Shown here: piece by piece, positions 45,925 to 62,924 of the stretch
Layout: each line of letters starts with the position of its first letter
Position numbering within the stretch: position 1 is the stretch's first letter
From: Maritimibacter dapengensis
GTDB lineage: Bacteria > Pseudomonadota > Alphaproteobacteria > Rhodobacterales > Rhodobacteraceae
Length of the DNA stretch: 64,000 nucleotides
Reading direction: 5' to 3'
Assembly (NCBI RefSeq): GCF_019218265.1
Contig: NZ_JAHUZE010000002.1
Span: forward strand, 310,001-374,000
Notes under the pieces: generated by a model
Told to the model about the DNA's origin: nothing
The model's database searches: none
What the model saw: only the letters and a program-made list of their open reading frames with translations
Translations under genes and position numbers: made by a program

Positions 45925-45999
45925 TGGGGTGTAGCCAAGTGGTAAGGCAGCGGTTTTTGGTACCGTGTATCGTAGGTTCGAATCCTACCACCCCAGCCA
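45925..45999 (+). tRNA. trnQ: tRNA-Gln, anticodon TTG
   Basis: The 75-nt gene, with CCA encoded, folds into a full cloverleaf. The acceptor arm is TGGGGTG / CACCCCA, the T arm GTAGG-TTCGAAT-CCTAC, and the anticodon loop TTTTGGT has TTG at 45957-45959. It resembles known tRNA-Gln genes of alphaproteobacteria. Confidence 0.97.
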
Positions 46000-46391
46000 C
46001 CCACCCCCGTCTCACTTCCAGCATGACGACCTGCGGGGATTTTGGCCAAGCTTCAGTACGGGGTATGTCCGGGGAACAAAATTTGAGCCGGGCAGGGCGG
46101 TCTCTTGCGTTGGCCTGGACCGAACGATCTGTCTTCAAACACCTCGAAAGCTCGCCAGCAATCATCCGTCTCGCGGTGATGCTCTACCTTAGGTCCCCGT
46201 TGTTGTTCGACTGAGACTTGTTCCCGTTCGACTCAACGCACAGCCTTCGCAATGCGGGTGCGCCAAAATCTATTGTAGACAATATGTATTTTTTGAGCCT
46301 ACAAAGAGAACAGGGTGGATGGTGCCTGCGATCGAATGGATGTCCCGGTTCACGATACACCCGTAAGCACTTTTGGGTGTGGGAGGCTCTT
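46000..46391. other. 392-bp spacer between tRNA-Gln and the regulator gene
   Basis: No gene with a ribosome site is seen. The spacer has a lower GC content than its surroundings around 46260-46310. It contains a palindrome (46272-46283) that fits a GntR operator. I saw no repeat of the tRNA 3' end further right, so there is no sign of tRNA-based integration. Confidence 0.55.
46272..46283. promoter_or_regulatory. Probable GntR operator
   Basis: ATTGT-AG-ACAAT is a perfect palindrome and contains the TNGTNNACNA-like pattern known for FCD-type GntR regulators. It lies about 110 bases before the GntR start at 46392, in place for autoregulation. Confidence 0.55.
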
Positions 46392-47099
46392 TTGGTCGAG
46401 GTCGCGAAGTCCAAGAAAATGCAATCCCTCGAGGACCTGCGCAGGCGAATTCTGACGCAGGACCTCGAGCCCGGCACGTATTTGGACGAGTCGCAGTTGG
46501 CCGCGACGTATGACTTGTCTCGTCCGCCGATCCGGGAGATCCTTTATCAACTCGCGGGCGAAGAATACGTCGTGCTTCAAAAGAACCGCGGCGCTCAGGT
46601 CGCCCCGATGACGCACAAGACGCTCAGGAATTTCTTCGTGGCGGCCCCGATGCTCTATGCGGCTGTGACGCGGCTTGCAGCTCAGCACGCCACGCAGGCG
46701 CAGATCATGCGGCTCAAGGATACCCAGATGCTTTTCCGAAAGGCGATCCGCGACGGGGATGCCGCGGCCCGGGCGCTGACCAACCAGCGTTTCCACGCGA
46801 TCATCGGAGAGATGGCGGACAACGAGTTCCTGATGCCGAGTCTCCGGCGGCTCCTGATCGACCACACGCGAATTGCGATGACCTTCTACAATCCGCGCAA
46901 TGTGAAGCTGGCGGAAGAACGCAGTGTTGCCGCGGACCAGCACGACCAGTTTATCGATCTGATCGAGGCGGGTGATGCCGAGGCGTCCGGTCAGCTGGCC
47001 ATCGCACATTGGGAATTGTCGCGTTCTGAAATCGAAAGCTTCGTCACCCCTGACGGAATGGAAATACCGCTGGGGCAGGCGCCTGGCGGCTTGAGATAG
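46392..47099 (+). CDS. GntR-family regulator with FCD domain
   Basis: The start is TTG at 46392, five bases after GGGAGG. The 235-residue protein has an N-terminal winged helix (YDLSRPPIREILYQLAGEEYVVLQKNRGAQVAP) and a C-terminal FCD ligand domain (about 90-215). Such proteins repress catabolic operons until an organic acid or amine binds. The operon that follows starts 11 bases after its stop, so it should be the regulator of the amine-catabolism island. Confidence 0.9.
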   Translation: MVEVAKSKKMQSLEDLRRRILTQDLEPGTYLDESQLAATYDLSRPPIREILYQLAGEEYVVLQKNRGAQVAPMTHKTLRNFFVAAPMLYAAVTRLAAQHATQAQIMRLKDTQMLFRKAIRDGDAAARALTNQRFHAIIGEMADNEFLMPSLRRLLIDHTRIAMTFYNPRNVKLAEERSVAADQHDQFIDLIEAGDAEASGQLAIAHWELSRSEIESFVTPDGMEIPLGQAPGGLR

Positions 47100-47110
47100 A
47101 AAGGTCCGCC

Positions 47111-48013
47111 ATGAAGTTCGATGGCATCTACACGCCGGTCATCACGCCCTACGGCGACGACGGCAGCATCGACCGCGATGCTTTTGCCGCCCAGATCGAG
47201 CATCTGATTGCGTCCGGCGTGCATGGCATCATCAACGGTGGCTCCACTGGCGAGTATTACGCCCAGTCGATGGATGAGCGAAAGTCCCTCGCATCCTGCG
47301 CCAAGGAGGTGATCGACGGGCGGTTGCCATTGGTCGTCGGCACGGTCGCGATCCGCCTGGAGGACAGTCTTGCCATGGCCGAGCACGCGGCCGAGATCGG
47401 GGCCGACGCGATCCTCGTTGGGTCGCCTCCGTATTCGGTGCCGACCGAACGGGAGAATGCGTTGAACACGCTTGCCATCGACCGGGCGGCGGACCTTCCG
47501 ATCATGCTTTACAACTATCCGGGCCGCATGGGCATCGAGATGGGCGAAGAGTTTCTCGACCGGGTTGGTCGGTCGCGCAACGTTGTCGCGATTAAGGAAA
47601 GCTCCGGCGATATCAACCGTGTGCATCTTCTGGCGCGTGATTATCCCCATATCCAGATGTCCTGCGGGATGGACGATCAGGCCTTGGAATTCTTCGCCTG
47701 GGGTGCGCGCAGCTGGGTCTGCGCCGGGTCGAACTTTCTTCCTGACGAGCATGTGGCGCTTCACCGTGCGTGTGTCATGGAAGGCGATTTCGACAAGGGC
47801 CGGCGGATCATGTCGGCGATGATGCCGCTCATGCGGGTGCTGGAGCAGGGCGGGAAGTTCATTCAATGCGTGAAATACGGATGTGAGATGAGCGGTCACT
47901 ACGCAGGGCCGCCGCGTCCGCCGCTCCGCGCGCTCAACAAGGATGACAAGCGGCAGTTGGAACAGGTGGTGCGCGTGCTGAAGCGCACCGTGGCCGAGAT
48001 CGAAGCGGAGTAA
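47111..48013 (+). CDS. Dihydrodipicolinate synthase-family lyase/deaminase
   Basis: The 300-residue protein is a DapA-type TIM barrel: GGSTGEYY (residues 43-50), the YNYPGRMGIE loop with Tyr134, and the Schiff-base lysine in AIKESSGD (Lys162). In hydroxyproline catabolism a member of this family deaminates pyrroline-4-hydroxy-2-carboxylate to 2-oxoglutarate semialdehyde, and the neighbours (GntR, aldehyde dehydrogenase, FAD oxidase, HpbD-like epimerase) make that role the best guess. Another keto-acid dehydratase or aldolase activity is possible. Confidence 0.8.
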   Translation: MKFDGIYTPVITPYGDDGSIDRDAFAAQIEHLIASGVHGIINGGSTGEYYAQSMDERKSLASCAKEVIDGRLPLVVGTVAIRLEDSLAMAEHAAEIGADAILVGSPPYSVPTERENALNTLAIDRAADLPIMLYNYPGRMGIEMGEEFLDRVGRSRNVVAIKESSGDINRVHLLARDYPHIQMSCGMDDQALEFFAWGARSWVCAGSNFLPDEHVALHRACVMEGDFDKGRRIMSAMMPLMRVLEQGGKFIQCVKYGCEMSGHYAGPPRPPLRALNKDDKRQLEQVVRVLKRTVAEIEAE

Positions 48014-48016
48014 GAC

Positions 48017-49513
48017 ATGAGCGACCTTCTGACGACCGAAGAATACAAAGCCATCGCCGCCGAACTGTCTCCGCCGACCCAGGCGTTTATCGACGGCTCG
48101 TTTCGCCCGGCGAACTCGGGCAAGACGTTCGATACCGTGAACCCTGCGACCGGAGAGGTGATCGCGAAGATTGCCGCCTGCGGCGCCAATGACGTGGATT
48201 TTGCTGTCGAAAAGGCCCGTGACGCGTTCGAGGACGGGCGCTGGTCGCGCCTGCACCCGAGTGAGCGAAAAGAGGTGCTCATCCGTCTCGTGAAGCTGAT
48301 GAAGCGCAATGCGCGCGAACTTGCGGTGATGGAAAGCCTCGACAGTGGTAAGACGATTTATGACTGCGAGACGGTCGACCTGCCCGAGACCATGCATTGC
48401 CTGACGTGGCATGCCGAGCTGATCGACAAGATTTATGATCAGGTCGCACCCGCTTCAGACGACCATATAGCGATGGTCCTGCGCGAACCTGTTGGCGTGG
48501 TCGGGCTGGTTCTTCCGTGGAATTTCCCACTCCTGATGCTCGCCTGGAAGATCGGGCCTGCGTTGGCCGCTGGCTGTTCCGTCATCGTGAAACCGGCCGA
48601 GGAAACTTCGCTCACCGCTTTGCGCATGGCCGAGCTTGCGATGGAGGCCGGCATTCCGGCGGGCGTGTTCAACGTCATACCGGGGAGTGGGGTCGAGGTC
48701 GGAGAACCGCTGGGGCGGCACATGGACGTTGACATGGTATCGTTCACCGGATCGACGGCCACGGGGCGGCGATTTTTGGGATATTCGTCGGAGAGCAACG
48801 TCAAAGAGGTCACGCTCGAGATGGGCGGCAAGAATCCGGCGATCGTGCTGGACGACGCCGAGAACCTCGACCGGGTCGCAGCCCATATCGTCAACGGCGC
48901 ATTCTGGAATATGGGGGAGAATTGTTCCGCGTCGTCACGGCTGATCGTGCAGAAAGGCGTCAGGGACAAGCTCATTGAAAAGATCTTGGCCCATGCCCGC
49001 GAATGGCCGATGGGCGATCCGCTCGATCCTGAAACCCGCGTTGGCGCTCTGGTCTCCGAAGCCCACTTCGACAAGGTCCGCTCCTATATCGGAGACGATG
49101 CGACCGTGATCTTGGGTGGAAAGGCCGAGAAGGGGTTCGTGGAGCCGACGGTGATCGAGGTCGCGCGCGACGCGAAACAGGCGCGTGAAGAGATCTTCGG
49201 GCCGGTGTTGTCGGTCATGACCGTGGACAGTTTCGACGAAGCGATTGCTCTGGCGAACGATACGGATTACGGGCTTGCCGCCTCGATCTTCACCGCCAAC
49301 TACAAACGGGCGATCCGGGGCGCACGGATGCTTCGTGCGGGCACAGTGACCGTGAACAGTTTTGGTGAAGGGGACATCTCGACACCCTTCGGTGGCTATA
49401 AGCAATCCGGTTTCGGCGGCCGGGACAACGGCATCCAAGCACACGATCAATACACGCAGATCAAGACGATCTGGCTGGATCTGGCCGATGACGACGACGA
49501 GGCGGTTGATTGA
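48017..49513 (+). CDS. NAD(P)-dependent aldehyde dehydrogenase
   Basis: The 498-residue protein has the full ALDH set: WNFPLLMLAWKIGPALAAG, TGSTATGRR, the general-base Glu in LEMGGKNPAIV, the nucleophile in GENCSASSR and the ending GGYKQSGFGGRDNG. Its C-terminus (QYTQIKTIW) resembles gamma-glutamyl-gamma-aminobutyraldehyde dehydrogenase (PuuC). In this operon oxidation of 2-oxoglutarate semialdehyde fits best. It starts three bases after the DapA-type gene and overlaps the FAD oxidase by TTGA. Confidence 0.9.
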   Translation: MSDLLTTEEYKAIAAELSPPTQAFIDGSFRPANSGKTFDTVNPATGEVIAKIAACGANDVDFAVEKARDAFEDGRWSRLHPSERKEVLIRLVKLMKRNARELAVMESLDSGKTIYDCETVDLPETMHCLTWHAELIDKIYDQVAPASDDHIAMVLREPVGVVGLVLPWNFPLLMLAWKIGPALAAGCSVIVKPAEETSLTALRMAELAMEAGIPAGVFNVIPGSGVEVGEPLGRHMDVDMVSFTGSTATGRRFLGYSSESNVKEVTLEMGGKNPAIVLDDAENLDRVAAHIVNGAFWNMGENCSASSRLIVQKGVRDKLIEKILAHAREWPMGDPLDPETRVGALVSEAHFDKVRSYIGDDATVILGGKAEKGFVEPTVIEVARDAKQAREEIFGPVLSVMTVDSFDEAIALANDTDYGLAASIFTANYKRAIRGARMLRAGTVTVNSFGEGDISTPFGGYKQSGFGGRDNGIQAHDQYTQIKTIWLDLADDDDEAVD

Positions 49514-50850
49514 CGACGCTGAGGGCCACACGGCTTCCCGATCTTCCGGGTCCGGCCGCTTGGAATGTCATACTCGGGGTCGATCCGCCACGTCCTTCGT
49601 TGAAGGGGCAGGTGTCGGCGGATGTGGTCATCGTCGGGGCAGGGTTTGCCGGGCTTTCGGCGGCACGACGGGTGCGGCAACTGGAGCCTTCGGCGAAGAT
49701 CATCGTGGTCGATGCGGTCGCGGTCGGAGAAGGATCTGCGGGGCGCAATTCCGGGTTCATGATCGACATCCCACATGACCTCGTCTCCGACGATTACGCG
49801 GGCGCGGGGGACGACTTGGCGGTGATGCGGCTCAACCGGCAGGCGATTGCATTCGCGGCCGATGCTGTCGCCGACTACCGGATCGACAGCAACTTTTTCG
49901 ACCGAGCGGGCAAGATAAACGGCGCGGCAAGCGATCATGCGGATGCGAACAACCGCAGCTTTGCGCAGCATCTCAACCGTTTGGGCGAGAGCAGCGAAAC
50001 CCTGGACGAGCGACAGATGCGCGAAATCACAGGGTCGGCGCATTATCGATCCGGTCTTTATACGCCTGGCACTGTCATGTTGCAGCCCGCCGGCTATGTG
50101 CGCGGATTGGCGAAAGGGTTGGCGCGCGACGGTGTCGATATTCTCGAGAACTCACCGATCAAGGCACTGACCCGACAGGGCAGCGCTTGGCAGGTGGAAG
50201 GTCAGGCAGGGGTGATCAGCGCGGGGCGGGTGATCCTTACGGTGAATGGCCATCTGGCGAGCTTCGGCATTGAACAGTCCAGCATCATGCAGATGTTTCT
50301 ATACGCCGTGATGACGCCTGAACTGGATGACGGGGCGCTTGCGATGCTGGGCGGGACGTCACGGTGGGGGATTACGCCATCTGACCCAATGGGAACGACT
50401 GTGCGCCGGATCGACACCGGCCAGGGTGGCAACAGGATCGTGACGCGGACATGCGCCACGCTGCGGCCGGGGACGCGTGTCTCGAAGGCCGACGTCCGAC
50501 GGGCGGCGCGTGTGATGCAGCAGAAGTTCGACCGGCGTTTCCCCCAGCTTGCTGGGATGAAGCAGGAATTCTCCTGGGCCGGGCATCTCGCAATGACGCT
50601 GAACGGGGTTTCGGTGATGCGCGAGATCGACACAGGGCTGTTTTCGGGATGCGTTCAGAACGGGCTTGGCACGGCGCGCGGAACGCTCACCGGTATAGGT
50701 GCTGCGGAACTGGCGTTCGGTGTCGAGAGCGACATAACGCGCCATTTCACGGCAGAGCCCGCGCCCAAGCGGCTGCCGCCCCAGCCGTTTCAGGAGATCG
50801 GCGCAAACGCGTTCATCCGATACAAGGAATGGCGCGCGCGTGACGAGTGA
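49510..50850 (+). CDS. FAD-dependent amine/D-amino-acid oxidoreductase
   Basis: The 446-residue protein starts at a TTG that overlaps the stop of the preceding gene. After about 35 residues it has the FAD motif VVIVGAGFAGLSAARR, then SAGRNSGFMIDIPHDL. This is the DAO fold of the PuuB/DadA group. In this operon oxidation of cis-4-hydroxy-D-proline, or of an N-methylated form, to the pyrroline is likely. It may pass electrons to oxygen or to the respiratory chain. Confidence 0.85.
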   Translation: MTTLRATRLPDLPGPAAWNVILGVDPPRPSLKGQVSADVVIVGAGFAGLSAARRVRQLEPSAKIIVVDAVAVGEGSAGRNSGFMIDIPHDLVSDDYAGAGDDLAVMRLNRQAIAFAADAVADYRIDSNFFDRAGKINGAASDHADANNRSFAQHLNRLGESSETLDERQMREITGSAHYRSGLYTPGTVMLQPAGYVRGLAKGLARDGVDILENSPIKALTRQGSAWQVEGQAGVISAGRVILTVNGHLASFGIEQSSIMQMFLYAVMTPELDDGALAMLGGTSRWGITPSDPMGTTVRRIDTGQGGNRIVTRTCATLRPGTRVSKADVRRAARVMQQKFDRRFPQLAGMKQEFSWAGHLAMTLNGVSVMREIDTGLFSGCVQNGLGTARGTLTGIGAAELAFGVESDITRHFTAEPAPKRLPPQPFQEIGANAFIRYKEWRARDE

Positions 50851-50978
50851 TCACGACCGAACGGGTTTGGCCACAGCTTGATCTGGCCCGAATTGGCGGT
50901 CAGGAGGCAAAAGGTACGCGTGAGCATCGGGTCAGCGTGGCGTTCGCCCGCGCACCATCGCGTCTTCCGTCAGGCGGT

Positions 50979-52082
50979 CTAGAAGGAGGCGACCGGGGGG
51001 CCAAACAGGGTTTCATCGGGCGTCACGCCCAGACCCGGCCCGGTCGGGAGCGCAATATGGCCGCCGACGATGTCGATGCCGGCATCCGGGTCGTAGTGTT
51101 GTGCCACATAAGGTGCTGCAAGCCAGACGCCGTCCATACGTTCGGGGGCGACCGTCGCCCCGATCTGGGTGCAGGCCGCCGAGACGATGTCGCCGCCCCA
51201 GGCGTCGTCGCAGGTATGCGGAAGCCGCCGCGCCGCGCACAGGTCACGGAACGCGCGCATCGGGTGAAGACCTCCGAGCCTGCCGACTTTCATACCGAAA
51301 CCGTCGACCAAACCAGTGCCCGCAGCCTCGATCGTGGTGGCAAGGGATCGGCCGTTTTCGTCCATGTAGAGGGGATGGTGCAGGAACGGCCGCACCGTGC
51401 GCAGGTCATCGACCCGATTGCAGGGCTGTTCGATGACGAAGGGCAGGGCGCTGCAGGCCCGCGAGAACTGGATGGCGTCCCCGGTGGACCACCCCCGGTT
51501 GCCATCGGCGGCGAGCTTGACCCCCGATCCTTCAAGCGCTTCGCAGACCTTCCGCATCGCGGCGATGTCGATCTCCACCGGGCGGCCGGAAAGCTTGATC
51601 TGAAGCCTTGGATAGCCTTCGGCCACCTTTTCACGCGCGATGCGCGCGGCCTCGTCCGGTTCACAGACCCCAATGGAGTAATAGGAGGCAACCCGGTTCG
51701 TCAGCGCGCCGCCGAGCAGGTCACACACGGGAATGTTGAGGGACCTTCCCAAGGCATCGAAGGCCGCGATGTCGATGGCGGACTTGGCGTAGTTGTGGCC
51801 GTAGAGAAGCGAATCCATCCGGGCGTGGAGCGGGACCGGCAAGACGTCGGCCCCGATCAGGTTCGGCGCGAGTTCGGTCAGCGCGGCAAGCGCGCCTTTG
51901 GCATGTGCCTCGGCGTAGGTCGGGCCGACGGGACAGGCCTCGCCCCAGCCGATCACACCGGTGTCGGTCACGAGCTTTACGATGGTCGTGGTCAGGGACC
52001 AGACGTCGCCGCTCGCGATCCGGTAGGGCCCATCTTTCACCGGCAGGTCGTGGGTGAATAGATGAAGCTCTGCAATCCGCAT
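50979..52082 (-). CDS. hpbD: Enolase-superfamily epimerase, 4-hydroxyproline betaine 2-epimerase-like
   Basis: The 367-residue protein (start ATG 52082) closely fits HpbD from Pelagibaca bermudensis as I recall it, including [20 protein letters not shown]. Catalytic Lys163 (RLQIKLSG) and Lys265 ([10 protein letters not shown]) sit at the same numbers as the acid/base pair of HpbD. Tyr56, Asp292 and Trp320, recalled as substrate contacts with Trp320 near the quaternary nitrogen, are also at the same numbers. Metal ligands are Asp193, Glu219 and the DEN at 241-243. HpbD interconverts trans-4-hydroxy-L-proline betaine and its cis-D form. Proline betaine could also be used. Confidence 0.88.
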
Positions 52083-52083
52083 G

Positions 52084-53082
52084 TCAGCACCTTGCAAGGT
52101 GCGGATAGCTATCGCGGAATCGTCCGAATTTGTGCGCACCGCACGTCACCGCGTGATAGCGCGCCGGGTTCTCGGAGGTGACGCAGTTGGGGAGGGGACC
52201 GAACTCGGCATCGTAGTCTGCATCTATGAAGAACGGGATCGAGTATCGTTCGCGCCCGGACGTGTTCACGACGCGGTGCAAATTGGCGAGGTAGAGATCG
52301 TTGGTCAGCCGTTGGACGAGATCGCCGATGTTGATCACGAACGTGCCGGGGATAGGCGGCGCTTCGACCCAGCCGCCTTCGCGGTTCATGACTTGAAGCC
52401 CACCGACATCGTCCTGGGCGAGTATGGTGAGATTGCCGTAATCGGTGTGCGCGCCGATACCGATAATGCTTTCGTCGACCGGTCCGGCCTGTGGCGGATA
52501 GTGAAGCAGTCTCTGGATACAGATCGGATTTGTCGTGAGCGGTGCGAAGAAGTCTTCGTCCAACTCGAGCGACAACGCGATCCCCTCGAGCATCCGGGTG
52601 CTGAGTGTTCGCATCGCTTCATGGTAGGCATAAACGGTTTCGCGAAACCCGGGCACTTGGTTCGGATCGGGCCAGAGGTTCGCACCGAAAAACGGCGTCA
52701 GGTCGCCGGGCGTTTCGGGGCCAAGGTCGAAGACCTCTTTCAAATCTTTCGTCTTGGTCGGATCGGTATTCTCGCCGAACGGTTCGATGTAGCCACGCAG
52801 CGTCGTGCCGGAAGTCGAGACGTGAAGCGCCATCTTGTCGGCCTCCGGCAGTGCGAAGAATGCCTTGGCCTGAGCGAAGGTATCGCCGATCAAGTGTGGG
52901 GCGACACCGTGGTTCTTCACATACATGAACCCAACGTTTGTCAGCGCCCAGTTGATATCGCGGGCGACCGAGGACTTGTCCGTTCCGTCGAGCAGCGTTG
53001 CGATGTCGACCACCGGGATGCGGTCGAAACTGACGCGGTGGGCGCGGAGCCGGTCATCCAGTTGTGCAGTGAAGTCTGTCAT
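52084..53082 (-). CDS. 2-oxoglutarate/Fe(II)-dependent oxygenase, isopenicillin N synthase family
   Basis: The 332-residue protein has an N-terminal DIOX_N domain ([12 protein letters not shown]) and the oxygenase domain with the iron triad His212-x-Asp214 ([11 protein letters not shown]) and His269 (LANLHRVVN), and RxS at residues 279-281 for 2-oxoglutarate. AAGGAG is eight bases before the ATG at 53082. It lies between the methyltransferase (27 bases upstream) and the epimerase (one base downstream) in one operon. N-demethylation or hydroxylation of the betaine is the likely role, which is inference. Confidence 0.85.
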
Positions 53083-53109
53083 GGGCCGGTCTCCTTTTGT
53101 CATGACCTT

Positions 53110-54678
53110 TCAGAAGGTTTGGTTCAACTCGTCGACGGCGGGAATTTCGCGTTCCCTCCGTGCGATATAGTCGAGCAGTTCCTCGTTCTTCGCGTCGTCG
53201 AGTTGCGGTTCCTGATACTCCGCGAGGAGTTTGCGAGCATGCTCCAGCGCGCGTTGCGTGATTTCCTTTTCGCCGTCGGCTTTCCATTGTTCGATCGAGT
53301 TGTTGTCGAACATTTCGGGCATGAAGAACGCTGTCTGGAAATTGTCCTGGGTGTGTTGGTGGCCCAGATAATGTCCTCCGGGTCCGACATCGGACACCGC
53401 GGCGAGCGCCTGGTCGAAATCGTGCCATTTCGGGCCTTCGGCCATTCGATAGGCCATTGCGCATTGCTCGGCATCCACGATGAATTTCGCCGTCGAGCAG
53501 TGCATCCCTGCTTCGTTCCACCCTGCTGAATGCCAGATGTAATTGGCACCGGCATGTATCACGGCAGAGAGCGTTGTCGCACTTTCATAACCTGCCTGCG
53601 CGTCGAAGGTCTTGGCGCCGCCAAGTGTGTTCGACGTGCGCCAAGGCAGACGGTAAAAACGCGCCATCTGACCGATCATGAAATTCATGAGGCTTATCTC
53701 GGGCGTTCCCGCCATGGGCGCGCCGGACTTCATTGAAACGGTCGCGAGGTAGTGGCCGTAAACCGCGGGCGCGCCGCGACGGATGACTTGCGTGTAGGCC
53801 AACGCCGAGAGGGCTTCGGCATTGAGCTGCGCGACCGTCACCGGAACGGAAGCCGGTGTATTGGCACCACCCAGGACGAAGGGCGAGCAAAGCACGGGCT
53901 GGTTTCGTCTGCTGAAGGCGCGCATGGCGCCAAGCATGGTTTCGTCCCAGACGAGCGGCGAGTTTCCATTGATGTTGCCCGTGGTGACCGGGTTCGCCTC
54001 CATGAAGTCTTCGCCGAACAGGATGGCGCACATTTCCATGACGTCCTCGGCGTTCTTCGGCGATGTCGTCATGCCCATGAACATCTTGTCGGAGTGTTTC
54101 ATCGAGGAATAGGTGATCTGCAGATGCCGATGCGCAACCGGCAGGTCCATCGGCTCGACGATGTGGTGCGCGGTCGAATGCAGGGCCGGCGACATATGGC
54201 TGAGCTTGTGAAACATCGCGAGGTCGTCGAGCGTCGGGTTCCTGCGGACATCGTCCAGATCGCGCAAGAAGGGTGCGCCGGTCATAGGCACGAACACCGA
54301 GTGAGCGCCGCCGAGGCGCACGTTGTTCTCTGGATTGCGCGCGGAATACGTGAAGTCCTCCGGGATCGTCGCGATCAGGTCCCGCACGAGGGCGCGGTCC
54401 AGGTAGACGATCTCACCAACAACCTTGGCACCGGCCGCTTTCCAATCCGCGAGCGCGATCTCATCGCGGAAATGGACGCCGACGTTTTCGAGAATGTCCA
54501 TCGAGGCTGCATCTATCTTCTCGATCTGCTCCTGGTCCATCACCTCACAGGTCGGCAAGGCGCGGATCAGACCGGGCAACATCCTGATATCGCGCGTTTC
54601 GCGGAGGATTTTTCGCGCCGCGCGTCCACCGGCGCGACCACGGGACCGGGTCTTGGGGATTTCGAGCGTTTGGTTCAT
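53110..54678 (-). CDS. Trimethylamine methyltransferase-family (MttB-like) protein without pyrrolysine
   Basis: The 522-residue protein is a TIM-barrel methyltransferase of the MttB superfamily (ILENVGVHFRDEIALADWKAAGAKV, NPVTTGNINGNSPLVWD, GYESATTLSAVIHAGANYIWHSAGW). The frame runs without an in-frame TAG, so it belongs to the non-pyrrolysine group, whose studied members demethylate glycine betaine, proline betaine or carnitine with a corrinoid protein. GGAGG precedes the ATG at 54678. No corrinoid protein or methyl-THF transferase gene is next to it. It leads the operon with the oxygenase and the epimerase. Confidence 0.88.
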   Translation of the reverse strand: MNQTLEIPKTRSRGRAGGRAARKILRETRDIRMLPGLIRALPTCEVMDQEQIEKIDAASMDILENVGVHFRDEIALADWKAAGAKVVGEIVYLDRALVRDLIATIPEDFTYSARNPENNVRLGGAHSVFVPMTGAPFLRDLDDVRRNPTLDDLAMFHKLSHMSPALHSTAHHIVEPMDLPVAHRHLQITYSSMKHSDKMFMGMTTSPKNAEDVMEMCAILFGEDFMEANPVTTGNINGNSPLVWDETMLGAMRAFSRRNQPVLCSPFVLGGANTPASVPVTVAQLNAEALSALAYTQVIRRGAPAVYGHYLATVSMKSGAPMAGTPEISLMNFMIGQMARFYRLPWRTSNTLGGAKTFDAQAGYESATTLSAVIHAGANYIWHSAGWNEAGMHCSTAKFIVDAEQCAMAYRMAEGPKWHDFDQALAAVSDVGPGGHYLGHQHTQDNFQTAFFMPEMFDNNSIEQWKADGEKEITQRALEHARKLLAEYQEPQLDDAKNEELLDYIARREREIPAVDELNQTF

Positions 54679-54969: not shown

Positions 54970-55197
54970 TCAGCTTTTGTCGGCTTCGTTCAAGAGGCCC
55001 TGGACCCAGCGGGAAGCGGCCCAGTTTGCGGGAAACGCCAACGGAACGGATACGATAAGCGCGGTTGTGGGGGAGAGTGCCGTGACGCCAAGCGATTGCA
55101 GCAGCAGAAAAAGCAGGAACAGGTTTATGGCGACGGCTGGCAAGACGAAAGGGAACAAAAGGAGCTTGAGCTTCCATGAAGGGCGGAGGGATGTCAT
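54970..55197 (-). CDS. Small two-helix membrane protein in the nir cluster
   Basis: The 75-residue protein has two hydrophobic helices (LLLFPFVLPAVAINLFLLFLL and a second after about residue 40) and a charged end. Its ATG overlaps the stop of the chelatase gene, so it is the last gene of the nir operon. It may be like the small NnrT-type membrane proteins seen with denitrification genes, but I am not sure of that. Confidence 0.6.
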   Translation of the reverse strand: MTSLRPSWKLKLLLFPFVLPAVAINLFLLFLLLQSLGVTALSPTTALIVSVPLAFPANWAASRWVQGLLNEADKS

Positions 55198-55898
55198 GCG
55201 GCATCCTTTCCAAGCAGCTGGCGCGTGGCATCTTGCGCGATAAGAGCTGGCGTGGAGTCCCATTGGATGAAGGGCGGCAGGCAAGGGCCAAGGAACCCGG
55301 CGGCGTGAAGCCCGGCGGGCACGTCCTGTGTCATGTGGCCGGAGTTCAACGCGAACCACGGCAGACAAATGGCTTGTCCCATATCTCGCGCGACGACTTG
55401 GAGCGCGGGTTCCTGCTCCAGAAATCCGGTTCGGATTTCGCGCATCGGGATGCAGGTGGCGAGTTTCGCTGCGAAGGCACGGGCTTCGGCCGCATTTGAT
55501 CGGCCGTGTGCCGAGCCGTGGGAGGCAATCAGAAGGCCGGTGGCCTGCGCGTCCCACCCAAGATCGTCGAGGACCTGCGCCAAACGGGCTGCAGCGGCCC
55601 TCGGCAGGTCGTTGGACTGACCAAACGGAGCGAGCTTGGGAACATTTTTTGGAGTTCGGCTCGGCAAGATCGTATCGGTGAAGAACCCCCCCGCCATGAA
55701 GAACGGATAAATCACGGCGTCAGGGTGGCTCGCGAGGGCCGCTTCAAGCTGGCCCGATGCTGCAAGCGTGGCAGAGGCCACCCGCCACCGCCCGTTGAGA
55801 CTGGCGCAGACCTTGTCTGCCAGCTTGGCGAGCGCATGCTCCTGCGGTTCGGGGTCCGATGGGCTACCATGTGCGACGATGAGGATGGTTCGGTCCAT
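55194..55898 (-). CDS. CbiX/SirB-type sirohydrochlorin chelatase-like protein
   Basis: The 234-residue protein has two similar halves of CbiX type. The first starts with TILIVAHGSPSDPEP (metal-binding His) and the second with GLLIASHGSAHGRSNA. Such chelatases insert Fe or Co into sirohydrochlorin. In the nir operon, next to NirE (which makes precorrin-2), it could supply siroheme, the starting material of heme d1. Its ATG lies two bases before the nirN stop. Confidence 0.8.
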   Translation of the reverse strand: MDRTILIVAHGSPSDPEPQEHALAKLADKVCASLNGRWRVASATLAASGQLEAALASHPDAVIYPFFMAGGFFTDTILPSRTPKNVPKLAPFGQSNDLPRAAAARLAQVLDDLGWDAQATGLLIASHGSAHGRSNAAEARAFAAKLATCIPMREIRTGFLEQEPALQVVARDMGQAICLPWFALNSGHMTQDVPAGLHAAGFLGPCLPPFIQWDSTPALIAQDATRQLLGKDAA

Positions 55899-55899
55899 T

Positions 55900-57486
55900 T
55901 CAGTGGCTCGTTCCGTCGGAAAAGCTGATCTTGTTCCAGACATTGTATTTGCCGACCGGTTTCGACATCGGCAGTCGGCGCACTTCCTCGAGTGTCTCGG
56001 AATCGAACACGATGAGCGCACCGTCGTTCTCCCAGACCGACACCAGCGCGTGGGAGCCATCCATCGTGAACTCGATATGGCCAACCGTCTTTCCGGGGTC
56101 CGGGTCGAGAGTGCGGACGATCTCAAGCGTGTCCTTGTCGAGGATATGAAGCTTGTCCTTGTGCGGCCCCATGAACACGTCGGCCCAGACGTACCGCGTG
56201 TTTTCGTGGCTTCGCAGGAAGAAGCCCGGACCGAGCGTCTCGATGCTCTTGACCAGCGACCAGTCGGCCGTGTCGATGACGCTGAGGCGGCCTTCGCCCA
56301 GATGCGGTGTGGCCATGACCTGTCGGCCCTGCGAGGTCCAGCTTATCCCGGAGCCGAGATGCGGCATTCCGGGGAGCGGTAGCGAGGCTACTTCCCGTCC
56401 GACGTCGAGGTTGACCACGACTCCCCTGTCGCCCGAGCGGCTTGTGCCGATCAGGTTCCGATAATCCGGTGTGAAGAAAAAATCGTCCATCGGCTCGTTC
56501 ACCAGGATACGCCGGCGGGCGAAGAGCCCGACTTCGTCTGAAAGCGCCTCTTTCATGCCTGCTTCGTGGCTGTGCACGAAACCATCGAAGAAGGGGCCGC
56601 CATCCTCGGTCGTCGCAATTTCCCAGATCTCGGGCGCGTCCTTGAGGGCGAGGATGAAGCTTTCGCGTTCGGGGGCCTGGTAGACCGCCGAGACCCGGCT
56701 CTCGGTGCCGTCGGCGGCGGTGATCGTGCGGATCTGAGCCGGCTCCAGCGTGTCGGTGGACAGGATCGTGAGCGTGTGGGGCAGGTAGTTCGCGACGGCG
56801 AGCCATTTCCCATCCGCGCTCATTGCCACATTGCGAGAATTGATCCCGGCGCGCACGCGGGCAACTTCGGCGAGCGACCAGATGTCATACTTCTGCACCC
56901 AACCGTCGCGCGACATGACGAAAACATACCGCCCGTCCGGCGAGAATTTCGGGCCGCCATGTACTGCGAAAGGCGTTTCGAACCGGTCGAGCACGTCAAA
57001 CGTGTCGCCGTCGAGCACGCTGATGTGGTGGTCGCCGGTCTCGACCACCAATGTGATGTTCATCGGGTTGGCGTCGAAGAGGGGTGCGTCCGCAGCGCTG
57101 TAGTCCGTGTTCGTAACGAGTGTGTCGCGAATGTCGGCTTCGGTCCAGGTTGGCACGTGGTCGAGCGGGGCCGAGATGAAAGCTGCGACTGACTTGATGT
57201 CCTCAGGACCGATCGTCTGGGAGAATGCTGGCATCTGGGTGGCCGTGCGACCATGCGCGATCACGTCTTCCAGCGAAGCGCCGCGCAGGCGTTTGAGGGC
57301 TTCGGGGATCAGCGCCGGGCCGACGCCGCCCAGCCGCGTTTCGCCGTGACAGGAGGCGCAGAGGTCGGAGTAGATCGTCGCGCCGTCGGGAGCGGCGGTG
57401 ACAGGAAGGGACGAACCAACTGTCACCGCCACCGCGACGGCGGCTGCCGCGCGGGTCATCTCAGAAAAAGCGGTGTTCCGGATCAT
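55900..57486 (-). CDS. nirN: Heme d1 biosynthesis dehydrogenase NirN
   Basis: NirN carries out the last step of heme d1 synthesis, oxidation of dihydro-heme d1. The 528-residue protein has a signal peptide (cleavage near residue 31), a c-type heme domain with CASCH at residues 43-47, and an eight-bladed d1 propeller resembling NirS. It lies after nirJ as in the Paracoccus order. The start at ATG 57486 overlaps nirJ by 26 bases. Confidence 0.9.
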
Positions 57487-58684
57487 GGGTCTTGCCTCGG
57501 AAAGGTGTGACTTCGACGCGGGGACCGGAGGATTGGGAAAGGCCGATCTCGGCGTCGGAAAGGTAACAGGCCGGGTCCTCGGCCCAGGGATCGCCTGTGA
57601 CCTGAAGCGCCCGTATGCGGGTGTTTCCGCCACAGACGTCCTTGAACGCACAGGCTCCGCAGCGGCCCTTCAGCGGACGGGGTCGTTGCCGCAGCGTGGC
57701 GAGCATGGGGTCCTCGCCATACCAGAGCTCGGAGAAAGGCGTCGTCTTGACGTTGCCGATCGTGTAGTCGGACCAGTAGGTGTCCGGGTGGACCGTGCCC
57801 AGCGGCGCGATATTCGCAACCCCAAGGCCCGATGAATTGCCCCCCCAGGCGCGCAGGTGATCCTCGACATGTGCAACCCGTGCTTCACCGAAGTGACGGC
57901 GCGCCCATTGAAGGAAATAGACTGCATCCGCGTCGTTGTTGCCGGTGACGATTTCCAACGGTTGATCCTCGGCCACGGCAACCCATGCCCGGTCTATCAA
58001 CGTGTCCATCGCACGTTTGGTTCGTAACCGTTCGGTGTCGTCTCCGCGGTTCTTGTCGCCGCGACCGGCATAGACGAGGTGGGACAGGTAGAACTTGTCG
58101 ACGCCCTCGCTGTCGCACAGGTCGATCATGTCGTCGAGCATATGTGCGTTGTCTTCCGTGATCGTGAACCTGAGGCCCACCTTGATGCCGCGTTTCTTGC
58201 ATTCGCGCACGCCTTCGAGAGCCTGGTCGAATGCACCTTCCTTGCCGCGGAACCAGTCGTTCATCGCACCGATGCCGTCGAGAGAAATGCCGACGTAGTC
58301 GAAGCCGATGTCCGCGACACGCGCGGCGGTGTCGCCGACGATTTTCGTGCCGTTGGTGGACAGCGCGAGGTGCTTGAAGTTCAGACTTCGGGCGCGTTCC
58401 GCGATGCCGAAGAAATCGGGGCGTGACAAAGGCTCACCACCCGAAAGGATGAGAGCGGGGATGTTCAGCGAGGACAGGTCGTCAAGCACGGACAATGCCT
58501 GAAACGGGTTCAATTCGCCCGGAAAGTTCACGTCCGCCGATACCGTATAGCAATGCCGGCACCGCAGATTGCACCGTCGGGTGAGGTTCCAGATCACGAC
58601 CGGCTTGACGGGGCCGGACCCGCGACGGGTCTTCACGGGTGTGGGTGTGACGAGTTCCTGCATGTATTGCGTGAGCCGGAACAT
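57461..58684 (-). CDS. nirJ: Radical SAM heme d1 biosynthesis protein NirJ
   Basis: NirJ removes two propionate groups from the didecarboxysiroheme precursor and starts oxo-group formation. The 407-residue protein has the radical SAM cluster motif at Cys38, Cys42 and Cys45 ([12 protein letters not shown]) and a C-terminal iron-sulfur region with [22 protein letters not shown] is the SAM-binding motif. It overlaps nirH and nirN. Confidence 0.95.
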
Positions 58685-59172
58685 CAGTGTGCCTCCTTGC
58701 GTAGACGCATCCCGGTTTTCTTCAGGATGCGGGCGGAATAGAGAACGTCACAGGCGCGGCAATCGGCACCGAGCATATGCGCGATCTCTTCGCGATGTGC
58801 TTCGACCTCGTCGCGGCTGGATCCGTGGACCATGGCGAACAGGTTGAAGGGCCAGTCAGGCAGCGCGCGGGGCCGTAGATAGCAGTGGCTGACAAAGGGC
58901 AGGGCGCCGATGCGCTCGCCCAGAACGTCGGCCGCACTGTCCTCCACGTCCCATACGGTCATGCCGTTCGCGACCATGCCGAGCGCATAATGATTGGGGG
59001 CGAGCGCTACGCGGCGGATCACGCCGGCCGCCTGCATCCGATCCATGCGTGCGATGACATCGGCCTCGTCCAGACCCAACCAGCGCCCCACCTCCGCGAA
59101 TGGCTGCGCCACGAGGGGCAAGCCGCCTTGCGTGGCGGAGAGAATGGCGCGATCTGTCGTGTCGATGGTCAT
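58684..59172 (-). CDS. nirH: Siroheme decarboxylase subunit NirH
   Basis: The 162-residue protein is an AsnC/Lrp-like subunit of the complex (NirD, L, G, H) that decarboxylates siroheme in heme d1 synthesis. It has the helix-turn-helix-like start ([31 protein letters not shown]) and a RAM-like domain with MTVWDVED, ending in [11 protein letters not shown]. It overlaps both neighbours by ATGA. Confidence 0.88.
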
Positions 59173-59642
59173 GCTGTGACCCTGAAGCCTATGAAAAATT
59201 CCTTCAGTTTCGGAAAGCGCATCACGGTCAGTCCCGTTTCCGCCTCGATCCGGTCCGCCGTCTCGTCGATTCCTTCGGGCGTATCCGTCGCCAGAACGAA
59301 CCACATGTTGAGGTGGTGGACGCGTTCATAATTATGCGCGACCTCGGGATGATCATTGACCAAAGTCATGACCCGTTCGAAATCGTCTTCCGGCACGTGC
59401 ATGGCGCAGAGACAAAAGGCGCCTCCCATAGCGGCGGCATCTATGAAGGGGCCAAAACGCGTGGCGGCCCCTATGTCCCGCATGCGGGCGATGCGGTCGA
59501 TCACGTCGGCCTCGGCGAGATCAAACTCCTGCGCGACGGCGGCGAAAGGATGCGCGGTCAATGTGATCCCGTCCTGGAGCCTGTTGATCAACTTGCGGTC
59601 GGTGGCGTCCAGTGCGTCTGGGGCGAGAGCGGTGCGGCGCAT
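59169..59642 (-). CDS. nirG: Siroheme decarboxylase subunit NirG
   Basis: The 157-residue AsnC-like protein (HPFAAVAQEFDLAEADVIDRIARM, then VAHNYERVHHLNMWFVLATD) belongs to the NirD/NirG branch and by position between nirDL and nirH is NirG. It takes part in conversion of siroheme to 12,18-didecarboxysiroheme. Confidence 0.88.
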   Translation of the reverse strand: MRRTALAPDALDATDRKLINRLQDGITLTAHPFAAVAQEFDLAEADVIDRIARMRDIGAATRFGPFIDAAAMGGAFCLCAMHVPEDDFERVMTLVNDHPEVAHNYERVHHLNMWFVLATDTPEGIDETADRIEAETGLTVMRFPKLKEFFIGFRVTA

Positions 59643-59643
59643 A

Positions 59644-60636
59644 TCAGGCGACCTCGGCTGGCTTGGCTGCGATATGCGCGCCCGTCTGTTTGAAGCACTT
59701 TTCCGAGAACAGGATCTGGTACCGGGTGCCTTCCAACTCGGGCAGACGCGTCGCGGCTTCGATCACCGCGAGGGCATCGGGTCGCGTCCTGGCATGGATC
59801 ATCGAGAACAGGCCATAGGGCCAAAGCTCGTCGACGGTGCGGCGCTCATAGCACAGGGTGACGCCCGGAAGGGCCGCCAACGCAGCGCCGGCCGCTTCCA
59901 TCCGGTCCGGTGCCACCTGCCAGGCGACCATCGCGTTGGCGCGCCAGCCGATGGAGCGGTGGCGCACGATGACGCCGAGCCGGGTTATGATGGCCGCGTC
60001 GCTTAAGGCCGCAATGCGCCCCAGCACGTCTTCTTCGCTCCGGTCCAGTCGCCGCGCCAGATCCGCGTAGGGCCGTGGTGAAATCGCGAGGCCTTCGGTC
60101 AGTCCGGCGAGTATCGCTCGATCCGATGGACGCAGCGCCGCAATATCTGCCTGAGGCCGCGAAAGATGCGGTGTCGGCCGGCCTGCGAGGGAGAAACCCA
60201 GGTCGATATTGAACGGCCGCACGAGTCGCAGATCCAACAGATCGAGCCCACTGGCCGCGCGGATGCGATCGAGACTCGCATCCAATTCGTCAGCATTCGG
60301 GGCCGTGGCGACGAACCATAGGTTCCAGTCGTGTTCGCGCAGGTAAGAATGGTTCACGCCCGGCTCGCGCCCGACGATCTCCGCCACCTCGTCGATCCGC
60401 TCGGTCGGCACGGCGAGGGCGGCGAGGGTCGATGCGCCTACGGTGTTGGGTCGCACGGTCGCCCCGACACGCGCGATACGCCCGGCTGCGATCTGGGACG
60501 AAAGCAGCGCAAGGACGTCGCTTTCTTCGCAGCCGAGCGTCTCGGCCATGTGCCTGAAGGGACGCGGCACAATCGGGAAATTCCGCTGGAACTCATCCAG
60601 CAGGCGGTGTTCGAGGGGGGGGAGACGTTCGAGCAT
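59644..60636 (-). CDS. nirDL: Fused siroheme decarboxylase subunits NirD-NirL
   Basis: The 330-residue protein has two AsnC-like halves. Residues 1 to about 160 match NirD (FPIVPRPFRHMAETLGCEESDVLALL, later NHSYLREHDWNLWFVAT), and residues from about 170 match NirL (LAISPRPYADLARRLDRSEEDVLGRI, later RRTVDELWPYGLFSMIHAR). Separate nirD and nirL genes are usual in Pseudomonas; fusions are known in Paracoccus. Decarboxylase activity of NirDL alone has been shown elsewhere. Confidence 0.92.
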   Translation of the reverse strand: MLERLPPLEHRLLDEFQRNFPIVPRPFRHMAETLGCEESDVLALLSSQIAAGRIARVGATVRPNTVGASTLAALAVPTERIDEVAEIVGREPGVNHSYLREHDWNLWFVATAPNADELDASLDRIRAASGLDLLDLRLVRPFNIDLGFSLAGRPTPHLSRPQADIAALRPSDRAILAGLTEGLAISPRPYADLARRLDRSEEDVLGRIAALSDAAIITRLGVIVRHRSIGWRANAMVAWQVAPDRMEAAGAALAALPGVTLCYERRTVDELWPYGLFSMIHARTRPDALAVIEAATRLPELEGTRYQILFSEKCFKQTGAHIAAKPAEVA

Positions 60637-60638
60637 GA

Positions 60639-61790
60639 TTACAGCCCCGGTTGATGCGCGCGGGCCGTGAAGAAGATGCCCGAGGGGGCATTGGCTTCGA
60701 TTTCGGCTTTCACTTGATAGGTGCGCGTGTCGTAGATGATGACCTTGTTGTCATCGCGTGACGACACCCACGCCTCGGCGCCGCGCGGGGCGAATTCCAT
60801 GTGCAGGATCGCCTTGCCCGGTTTCAGCGTCTTGACCACTTCGTGCGTGCGGCTGTCGACGACCTGCACCACATCGTTGAGCGGCGTGGCGTAATTCACC
60901 CAGACATAGGGCGAGGCGGGTTGCGCAATGATGAAGACAGGTTGTCCATGAGTGGGGGTGCGCCCGACTTCTTTCAGCGTTTCGCGGTCCACCCAGAGAA
61001 GCTCGTGACGCCCAACGGCGGGGAGGACGAATTGCCCCTCCGTGAAGGCCCAGCCTTGCAGATGGGGCATCTTGTAGACGGGCATGTCGTCCTCGACCTT
61101 GCCGTAGTCCTCAAGGAACTTGACGGGTTTGGGGTCATCGTCCCACAGGTCGATGGCGGTGACGCCTTTTTCTCCGAAAAGCCCGATCAGGTAGGTGTGC
61201 GCGTCATCGGTGACGACGGCGTCGAACGGGTTGAGACCTGCATTGCCGATAATCTCGATGACTGGATCGGGGCTTGAGAAATCACCCAGAAACACCTTGC
61301 CGGTATCCCAGACTGTCCAGATGAAGCGGCGACCGGGAAGATCGGCCAGTCCGATGGTCTTGCCGTCCGCCGGAACGTCGGCCACGAGCTCGAGGGTGTC
61401 GGCGTCGAATACCTTGACGCCGCCGGGCGTGTAATTGGACACCGCCACCAGTTCGCCATCGTCCGAGATCGCGCCGCCGATGGAATTGCCGGCCTGGATG
61501 GTGCGGGCCTTGATCTCCTGCGTCAGCATGTCGATCTTCGTCAGCCCGCCGTCGCGCCCGAAGACATAGGCGTGGCGTTCGTCCGGGGCATAGGTCATGG
61601 ACGCATGAGACATGTCGCCCAGGTCTTCGACCCGCCCGACCGCGGCGCGTTCCGAGCGGTCGATCACCAGCACCGAGCCGGTGGCACGTTCGACGATCAG
61701 GCCGAGATCGCCAGTGGCGCGCAGGGTGTCGTCTGCGAAACCTGCAATGGGCAGGAGTGCAAGTGCGGTGGCGGACAGAAAGCGGTTCAT
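60639..61790 (-). CDS. nirF: Heme d1 biosynthesis protein NirF
   Basis: NirF is a periplasmic beta-propeller protein needed for heme d1 synthesis, acting after NirJ. The 383-residue product has a signal peptide (cleavage after AGFA near residue 18) and then a d1-binding propeller similar to NirS without the cytochrome c domain. The start at ATG 61790 overlaps nirC by ATGA. Confidence 0.92.
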   Translation of the reverse strand: MNRFLSATALALLPIAGFADDTLRATGDLGLIVERATGSVLVIDRSERAAVGRVEDLGDMSHASMTYAPDERHAYVFGRDGGLTKIDMLTQEIKARTIQAGNSIGGAISDDGELVAVSNYTPGGVKVFDADTLELVADVPADGKTIGLADLPGRRFIWTVWDTGKVFLGDFSSPDPVIEIIGNAGLNPFDAVVTDDAHTYLIGLFGEKGVTAIDLWDDDPKPVKFLEDYGKVEDDMPVYKMPHLQGWAFTEGQFVLPAVGRHELLWVDRETLKEVGRTPTHGQPVFIIAQPASPYVWVNYATPLNDVVQVVDSRTHEVVKTLKPGKAILHMEFAPRGAEAWVSSRDDNKVIIYDTRTYQVKAEIEANAPSGIFFTARAHQPGL

Positions 61791-62116
61791 TCGTCGGTCT
61801 CCTGTTGCAAGAGGTAATCGGCAATCCATTGCGCTTCGGCATCTGTCAGAAGCGGACGCCACGGCGGCATGGCGGTGCCCGGCACGCCGTCGAGAATGAT
61901 GGTGGCGAGCACGCCGGGATCGGCTCCGTCGAGCGCCTCATGGGTCAGCGGCGAGCCAAGCCCGCCCTTCATCGTCAGCCCGTGGCAGGAGCCGCAGTCC
62001 TGAATGACCATGTGTTCGAGTTCTGCCGCACGGGTCGGCGACATCTCGGCCATGGCCGGAACGGCGAGAACGGCAAAGGGCAAGAGGGCCAGCGCCCTAA
62101 ACGTGCGCAAGGGCAT
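61787..62116 (-). CDS. nirC: Cytochrome c NirC
   Basis: The 109-residue protein has a signal peptide (cleavage near AMA-EM) and one c-type heme motif, CGSCH, near residue 43, with a distal Met in GTAMPPW. NirC serves heme d1 maturation and gives electrons to NirS. It lies between nirE and nirF and overlaps both. Confidence 0.9.
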   Translation of the reverse strand: MPLRTFRALALLPFAVLAVPAMAEMSPTRAAELEHMVIQDCGSCHGLTMKGGLGSPLTHEALDGADPGVLATIILDGVPGTAMPPWRPLLTDAEAQWIADYLLQQETDE

Positions 62117-62879
62117 TGTCGGGAAACTCCGCAAGGGTTTCGGCCTCTTCCCCCAGCGACACGGTTTGTCCGACGAAGAACAGGACCGGCGCGGGCAGAT
62201 CGGCGATCGCCGCATCACCATTAAGCCTGTCGAGGCGCGAAAAGACGGTTTGCTGCCGGGGCGTCGTGGCCTGCGACACCGCCATTGCGGGCGTATCGGC
62301 GGGCAGTCCGTGCGCCATGAGGTTTCCGGCGATTTCTCCGATATTGGCGGCACCCATGTAGATCACCAGCGTCGTGTCGCCGGAGGCAAGGCTGAACCAG
62401 TCGAGATCGAGCGTGGCGTCGGCAGCACGGTGCCCCGTGACATATCGCACGCCCGTTGCCAGACCACGGTGCGTAAGCGGCACGCCAGTCGTCGAGGCCG
62501 CGCCCTGCGCAGCCGTGATGCCAGGGATGTAGCAGCATGGGATGCCTGCCGCCCGAAGCTCGGCGGCCTCCTCGGACCCGCGTCCGAAGATCAACGGGTC
62601 GCCGCCCTTCAGGCGAACGACCGTCCGCCCCTGCCGGGCGAGCCGCACGAGGGTTTCGTTGATCTGATCCTGAGGGACCTTGTGGCACTTGGGCATTTTG
62701 CCAACGTCGATACGCTTGGCACCGAGCGGTGCGAGCGCGAGGATTTCGGGTGAAACCAGCCGGTCATAGACCACAACATCGGCGCGATCGAGCGCGCGCA
62801 CGGCTTTGACGGTGAGCAGGTCGGGGTCGCCCGGTCCTGCGCCGATGAGGAAGACGGTGCCGATGGTGAGGTCTTTCAT
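62097..62879 (-). CDS. nirE: Uroporphyrinogen-III C-methyltransferase NirE
   Basis: NirE adds two methyl groups to uroporphyrinogen III to give precorrin-2, the entry to heme d1. The 260-residue SUMT-type protein has VFLIGAGPGDPDLLTVKAVRAL, VRLKGGDPLIFGRGSEE and VIYMGAANIGEIAGNL. The gene lies directly after nirS. Dehydrogenase and chelatase domains of CysG are absent, so precorrin-2 oxidation and iron insertion need another enzyme. Confidence 0.95.
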   Translation of the reverse strand: MKDLTIGTVFLIGAGPGDPDLLTVKAVRALDRADVVVYDRLVSPEILALAPLGAKRIDVGKMPKCHKVPQDQINETLVRLARQGRTVVRLKGGDPLIFGRGSEEAAELRAAGIPCCYIPGITAAQGAASTTGVPLTHRGLATGVRYVTGHRAADATLDLDWFSLASGDTTLVIYMGAANIGEIAGNLMAHGLPADTPAMAVSQATTPRQQTVFSRLDRLNGDAAIADLPAPVLFFVGQTVSLGEEAETLAEFPDNALAHV

Positions 62880-62924
62880 GGCTGACGCTTTCGCTGGCTG
62901 TGAGAAACTGAATGAAAGGGAATA

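Follow-up and report, generated by a model that had tools for sequence, protein, structure and literature searches.

Hydroxyproline betaine is an osmolyte of plants and algae and a salt-stress compound. HpbD and the hydroxyproline betaine pathway are already known, the hpb pathway having reportedly been described for Pelagibaca bermudensis and Paracoccus denitrificans by Zhao in 2013 and Kumar in 2014. The subject of the present analysis is an island of seven genes in Maritimibacter dapengensis (Rhodobacteraceae), found at positions 46392-54678 of a 64,000-nucleotide stretch of contig NZ_JAHUZE010000002.1 (the window; contig positions 310,001 to 374,000, forward strand). As judged from sequence, this island quite probably degrades 4-hydroxyproline betaine to 2-oxoglutarate (2OG), with epimerisation by HpbD as its predicted first step.

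The hpb pathway, here represented by the hpbD locus of Paracoccus pantotrophus, shares the HpbD epimerase and the betaine substrate with the window. According to the accessible part of PMC4113996 the end steps for hydroxyproline betaine belong to the DAAO, DHDPS and dehydrogenase families, as in the window, and the order given there is an epimerase, a DAAO-family oxidase, a DHDPS-family deaminase and a semialdehyde dehydrogenase; work on organisms that live on hydroxyproline betaine is also cited. The P. pantotrophus locus carries a Rieske-type oxygenase with its reductase as well as HpbA, while the island of the window has neither of these and instead encodes an MttB-family methyltransferase and a 2OG oxygenase. 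Furthermore, the P. pantotrophus stretch viewed lacks the trio of a DapA-family enzyme, an aldehyde dehydrogenase (ALDH) and a flavin adenine dinucleotide (FAD) enzyme found in the window. The hyp operons, composed of hypR, hypE, hypO, hypD and hypH in the available excerpt of PMC5343134, resemble the window in their DHDPS-, DAAO- and ALDH-family end steps (PMC4113996, available part) and in their GntR regulator. They differ in that the window DapA and dehydrogenase are 24 and 29% identical to their counterparts in the Sinorhizobium meliloti region, and in that the epimerase is replaced in the window by HpbD, which would act on the betaine.

Glycine betaine is demethylated in Ruegeria pomeroyi by MtgB, MtgC and MtgD, as stated in the accessible part of PMC12478193, and MtgB and MtgC belong to the same Pfam families as the window MttB and the B12-binding protein of its genome. 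The window MttB differs from the glycine betaine system in forming part of a separate clade, in being 40% identical to the second MttB of the genome and in being tied to HpbD/DapA loci. Plasmid pB of Cereibacter sphaeroides 2.4.1 (locus L132) displays the same layout as the window, GntR-DapA-ALDH-FAD facing HpbD-MttB in the same order and orientation. Unlike the window, it also has ProXWV, a GlxA-family regulator and two short-chain dehydrogenase/reductase (SDR) genes, and there is no 2OG oxygenase in the stretch.

The island consists of seven uninterrupted open reading frames (ORFs) in two tight convergent operons, where the genes within each operon overlap or are at most 11 bp apart. The gene set listed in a first-pass annotation of the window is intact, and the Pfam assignment agrees with the expected family for each of the seven proteins. 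The G+C content of the island is 61.5%, compared with 62.0% for the window. The features are:

46392-47099, plus strand: GntR/FCD-family regulator, first gene of the plus-strand operon (Pfam GntR and FCD; TTG start; a longer ORF runs from 46218)
47111-48013, plus strand: DHDPS/DapA-family enzyme, proposed 1-pyrroline-4-hydroxy-2-carboxylate (Pyr4H2C) deaminase (Pfam DHDPS; clade membership and motifs)
48017-49513, plus strand: aldehyde dehydrogenase, proposed 2-oxoglutarate semialdehyde dehydrogenase (Pfam Aldedh; epimerase-linked homologues)
49510-50850, plus strand: DAO-family FAD enzyme, proposed cis-4-hydroxy-D-proline oxidase/dehydrogenase, with a possible N-demethylase role (Pfam DAO)
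50979-52082, minus strand: enolase-superfamily, HpbD-like 4-hydroxyproline betaine 2-epimerase, predicted (matches to PDB sequences, tree, residues)
52084-53103, minus strand: 2OG-Fe(II) oxygenase, isopenicillin N synthase-like, possible second N-demethylase (Pfam DIOX_N and 2OG-FeII_Oxy)
53110-54678, minus strand: non-pyrrolysine MttB-family corrinoid-dependent methyltransferase, proposed first betaine demethylase (Pfam MTTB, 717 bits)
46272-46283, strand-neutral: possible GntR operator ATTGTAGACAAT, an exact palindrome about 110 bp upstream of the GntR start

HpbD and its gene neighbours in relatives

Over its full length the HpbD-like protein scores 575 bits against PDB entries 2PMQ/4H2H and 535 bits against 4E8G; we take these to be the HpbDs of P. 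bermudensis and P. denitrificans. It is about 62% identical to P. pantotrophus proteins annotated hpbD. In a tree of 35 rows it stands beside 2PMQ (support 95/56) inside a four-row clade (100/97) and apart from the group of a second enolase that accompanies HpbD in some relatives; the rows of this and all other trees were hand-picked, and the outer branches are long. Residues K163 and K265 (presumably the catalytic lysine pair), D193, E218 and D241 (presumably metal ligands), H289, D292, W295 and W320 match both PDB sequences, and the last four of these positions are occupied by other residues in all eight second enolases. An assignment of the protein as cis-3-hydroxy-L-proline dehydratase (NF043002) was rejected at 239.5 bits against an NCBIfam cut-off of 500. 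Since PF05544, the proline racemase family, has no match in the window genome at E ≤0.001, HpbD is the sole epimerase candidate found there. The grouping with solved HpbD-type proteins and annotated hpbD products, together with the kept residues, makes for a strong case that this protein is HpbD, as first annotated, and epimerase activity is predicted.

The gene set was compared among 80 HpbD loci, which are the best 80 of at least 266 relatives confirmed in one scan of named genomes. The loci are not independent, many coming from closely related Ruegeria and Leisingera. The counts rest on BLAST matches, as ORF calls are partly wrong in high-GC DNA, and some stretches stop at contig ends, so that absences there are uncertain. 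MttB (at least 70% identity) is found near HpbD in 47 of the loci, DapA (at least 50%) in 42 and the dehydrogenase (at least 55%) in 48. DapA and dehydrogenase occur together in 42 loci, and in 36 of these they converge on HpbD as in the window. All six core genes (GntR, DapA-like, aldehyde dehydrogenase, FAD enzyme, HpbD and MttB) are present together in 36 of the 80, an association that is more than chance even though the loci are related. No betaine transporter gene lies inside the island, as was noted at first annotation, and the whole genome was not searched for one; of the 36 full loci, 17 have a betaine-type ABC transporter gene no more than 20 kb away.

An even sample of the family gave HpbD orthologues (E ≤1e-150) in 16 of 295 genomes, the window genome included. 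Around the 15 others, one of which lies on a 10-kb contig, MttB (at least 75%) is nearby in ten and DapA (at least 68%) in seven. The presence of HpbD is patchy, since the lone genome of the same genus in this sample has no match at 1e-60. The expectation that the two operons recur together in other genomes is thus borne out by both sets.

In several relatives (L045:10533-12748, L061, L065, L070, L071, L072, L074, L075 and L084) a second enolase resembling cis-3-hydroxyproline dehydratase and a zinc-type reductase are found beside HpbD. The second enolase of L045 scores 322 bits to the cis-3-hydroxyproline dehydratase model, below its cut-off, and the stretches of the other eight contain no DapA of the island type. 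Such a pair could convert 3-hydroxyproline betaine to proline betaine by dehydration and reduction.

The plus-strand trio and its regulator

The window DapA shares a 13-row clade (95/99) with homologues that are found near 4-hydroxyproline epimerase genes, and it keeps the motifs of Tyr134 and the Schiff-base Lys162. The dehydrogenase is 57-81% identical to six such epimerase-linked homologues, and the FAD enzyme 44-56% identical to three. From this gene context the DapA is proposed to be the Pyr4H2C deaminase, the role of HypD/LhpC. A phmmer search of the PDB with the FAD enzyme gave no matches at E ≤0.001. Its predicted model (predicted local distance difference test score 86.5) resembles glycine oxidase, sarcosine oxidase, dimethylglycine oxidase and proline dehydrogenase, a fold that would fit imino-acid oxidation and N-methyl oxidation equally well.

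Nine plasmid DapA loci were hand-picked from the best 40 of 1665 plasmid records, and in six of them a proline-racemase-family gene lies near the homologues of the trio (L133, by tblastn only, and L134, L136, L234, L235 and L237, where it is annotated). Among the remaining three, L132 has HpbD while L236 and L238 have neither gene. At the level of the class, 19 stretches contain the DapA of the trio; an epimerase gene is present in four and MttB (at least 73%) in five, and beyond those four, genome G509 has an epimerase gene 9.6 kb from the trio. In Rhizobium etli p42f and Peteryoungia the trio is accompanied by an epimerase gene and by genes for a betaine ABC transporter, an HpbA-like flavoprotein (73-74%) and a Rieske-type oxygenase together with its reductase, and the R. 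etli locus also carries genes for formaldehyde oxidation. These two gene sets suggest a version of the pathway in which demethylation comes first. Pseudomonas and Caballeronia HpbD loci (L076, L117 and L127) have the same dehydrogenase (67-70%) and a DapA of a different subfamily. In addition, the primers listed for Atu3960 and Atu3961 in the available part of PMC4113996 fit the DapA and GntR genes of L134 in correct orientation and spacing, with at most three substitutions per primer.

The GntR protein is 37% identical over 213 amino acids to the GntR of the S. meliloti pSymB region and 76% identical to that of L051, the closest named locus. With up to two mismatches, the pattern ATTGTAGACAAT is found upstream of 28 of 42 GntR genes, the window included, compared with about 4.7 in shuffled controls. 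By itself the pattern is not unusual in the window, where it has two matches at up to one mismatch and 0.77 are expected; 17 of 100 shuffles reach two. As the pattern was derived from the window the operator remains a lead; control of the plus-strand operon by GntR, through the palindrome before its own gene, is probable.

Two candidate routes for the methyl groups

The window MttB contains the MTTB domain and has no in-frame stop or amber codon, which places it in the non-pyrrolysine MttB superfamily. MttBs of HpbD/DapA-linked loci form a 16-row clade (100/99), with the second MttB of the genome (40%) and four other MttBs outside it. Ten of the 80 HpbD loci carry Rieske genes (at least 40%), and two of the 47 MttB loci have both (Fisher p 0.013, uncorrected for kinship), while 25 of the 80 stretches have neither. 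Removal of a methyl group is probably the task of the B12-linked MttB here, in place of the oxygenase present in some relatives.

Partner proteins of the corrinoid type are encoded outside the island. The one B12-binding protein of the genome lies at C2:674961-675662, about 1.2 kb from a homocysteine S-methyltransferase (S-methyl_trans) gene, and one of two Pterin_bind proteins is found at C2:802196-803248. As judged by family, these fit MtgC (B12-binding), MtgE (S-methyltransferase) and MtgD (Pterin_bind) of R. pomeroyi. We infer that MttB feeds these MtgC/MtgD-like modules of the genome, the partner interaction being putative.

The first-pass annotation had named both the methyltransferase and the oxygenase as candidates for demethylation. 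The former is well placed in an MttB clade tied to the module, with likely corrinoid and pterin partners in the genome; the latter is seldom met near HpbD in relatives. The 2OG oxygenase is the sole match of its kind in the window genome at E ≤0.001. In Pseudomonas sp. PB101 (L079) a homologue (52%) is encoded no more than about 2 kb from HpbD, and on a plasmid of Mesorhizobium sp. 131-3-5 (L179:1998-19026) another (71%) follows a B12-binding protein, with MttB and an HpbD-like gene (51%) 13 kb away. Four of the five plasmid records with homologues of at least 60% were viewed; none of the three other plasmid homologues is near HpbD, and one is near sarcosine oxidase and purU genes. HpbA/OYE-like genes occur near HpbD in seven of the 80 loci and a P450 in one, while the best HpbA homologues of the window genome are just 34% identical and located elsewhere. 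The oxygenase may fill the HpbA/P450 slot in the window, although its action as a demethylase is rather doubtful; it is an unusual addition to the set, and any role given to it is a guess.

A cytochrome P450 gene adjoins HpbD at L081:11122 and L049:8278-9474 (72% mutual identity) and is possibly another exchangeable demethylase.

Proposed pathway, alternative substrates and significance

By homology, HpbD would invert C2 while the nitrogen is still quaternary. MttB would then pass one methyl group to the MtgC-like corrinoid protein and on to the MtgD-like pterin-binding methyltransferase, and the second methyl would be removed oxidatively, at a guess by the 2OG oxygenase, by the FAD enzyme or by an enzyme encoded elsewhere. 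Gene context and the order of the known hydroxyproline pathway suggest the remaining steps: the FAD enzyme would oxidise cis-4-hydroxy-D-proline, the DapA-family enzyme would convert the resulting pyrroline to 2-oxoglutarate semialdehyde by dehydration and deamination, and from this the aldehyde dehydrogenase would form 2-oxoglutarate. The plus-strand operon would be controlled by GntR at the palindrome, if that lead is followed.

A number of observations weigh against this reading. Nine of the eleven primer pairs for the Agrobacterium neighbourhood in the available part of PMC4113996, that for the epimerase Atu3953 included, fit none of the loci compared. Identity to the counterparts in the S. 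meliloti pSymB region is 24% (over 273 amino acids) for DapA and 29% for the dehydrogenase, and the DHDPS-family protein of that region lies far from the window DapA in the tree, on a long branch. The pSymB record is unannotated, and judging by its content we take this region to be the hyp region. The two window proteins were therefore rejected as orthologues of the S. meliloti hydroxyproline proteins, and the roles first given to them are proposed from context, the two grouping with epimerase-linked homologues and not with PuuC/PuuB; other, parallel subfamilies would carry out the deaminase and dehydrogenase steps. Tandem SDR genes, present in 34 of the 36 convergent loci, are missing from the window island, no search of the whole genome having been made for them, and have no place in the scheme. 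The 2OG oxygenase is near HpbD in one of the 80 loci and near it for none of nine homologues in the class, whose neighbours are mixed. Nor is the ATTGTAGACAAT pattern enriched before MttB, with 2 of 48 compared with about 3 in shuffled sequence.

The trio is also wider than HpbD, since 189 plasmid records have a DapA of at least 60% identity, compared with only 40 plasmid records that have an HpbD-like match at E ≤1e-60. Among 18 other class genomes with this DapA, ten have a strong PF05544 protein, one of them together with the only close HpbD, and the other eight have neither of the two. Within these eight, one genome is 67% complete, PF05544 is matched weakly and in part in three (in one over the cut-off), enolases distantly resembling HpbD (32-42%) occur in four, and MttB stands beside the trio in four (L160, L162, L168 and L169, in G468, G563, G389 and G594). 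Either the substrate or the epimerase must differ in these eight genomes.

As to the tandem SDR genes, they are located between HpbD and the FAD gene at L132:15702-17212 and in most of L051-L130, where they perhaps invert the 4-hydroxyl via a ketone.

One alternative is that proline betaine (stachydrine) is the main substrate, with HpbD as a racemase and the trio serving another compound. HpbD enzymes reportedly act on proline betaine as well (Kumar's 2014 study), and in the 29 kb viewed around hpbD of P. pantotrophus there are genes of the P5C reductase type and for ornithine cyclodeaminase but no such DapA. However, proline breakdown is not known to need a DapA-type deaminase or a semialdehyde dehydrogenase, while 42 of the 80 HpbD loci carry both and the same trio is found near 4-hydroxyproline epimerase genes; this alternative is considered unlikely. 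The trio and MttB might also serve some other N-methylated cyclic or hydroxy amino acid, HpbD having been recruited for its stereochemistry, which would accommodate the eight class genomes just described, four of them with adjacent MttB, and the unexplained SDR genes of most relatives. The repeated linkage of the trio to both 4-hydroxyproline epimerase genes and HpbD, and the betaine transporters nearby in relatives, make this quite unlikely. A polyamine (Puu-type) route in the plus-strand operon, the alternative raised in the first-pass annotation, would have no relation to HpbD and is very improbable: PuuC is indeed the best NCBIfam match of the dehydrogenase, but at 510 bits against a cut-off of 850, identities to Escherichia coli PuuC and PuuB are 44 and 24%, well under those to the epimerase-linked homologues, and the E. 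coli Puu cluster has no DapA-type gene in the stretch viewed. Orthology to PuuC and PuuB was rejected on the same figures. With the operons recurring together and no grouping with PuuC/PuuB, the overall assignment of the island to hydroxyproline betaine, as first annotated, is supported at the level of sequence comparison.

In the surroundings of the island, a tRNA-Gln (ttg) gene lies upstream at 45925-45999 and is a possible insertion site. A perfect 16-bp palindrome, GCACCTTGCAAGGTGC, is found at 52083-52103 of the window, at the end of the oxygenase gene and just ahead of the HpbD start. Beyond the MttB side, 55194-63992 holds heme-d1/denitrification-type genes (cytochrome d1 domains, radical SAM and NirDL-like siroheme decarboxylase), among them a CbiX-like gene at 55194-55988.

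Breakdown of proline betaine has reportedly been studied in Rhodobacter sphaeroides by Kumar in 2014, and as the MttB-type locus is present in C. sphaeroides 2.4.1 it may already have been described. The Kumar 2014 study is mentioned in the accessible part of PMC11337228. In the open-licence papers searched nothing was found that joins hydroxyproline betaine with HpbD or with a trimethylamine methyltransferase, and no paper was found naming two of PA4188, PA4189 and PA4191. What seems new is the contrast between corrinoid and Rieske enzymes, the two versions of one module, with either the epimerase or the demethylase acting first, and the presence of the oxygenase in the window. It is conceivable, if somewhat short of an even chance, that aerobic bacteria use a dedicated clade of MttB to demethylate hydroxyproline betaine, the methyl group going to the shared MtgC/MtgD methionine-synthase modules and being kept as a one-carbon unit; the second methyl would be taken by an exchangeable oxidative enzyme such as an HpbA-like flavoprotein, a P450 or, here, the 2OG oxygenase.

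If the proposed pathway is true, many Rhodobacterales would degrade hydroxyproline betaine by a corrinoid route in which one methyl group is retained for use in folate and methionine metabolism, and this route would stand where Paracoccus-type loci carry a Rieske oxygenase. It would also assign a concrete substrate to an MttB clade that so far has none, and add a second subfamily of DapA to the hydroxyproline pathway. Finally, it would suggest that the pathway exists in two orders, one where HpbD inverts first, and one where demethylation comes first and a 4-hydroxyproline epimerase inverts later, as indicated by the gene sets of R. etli and Peteryoungia.

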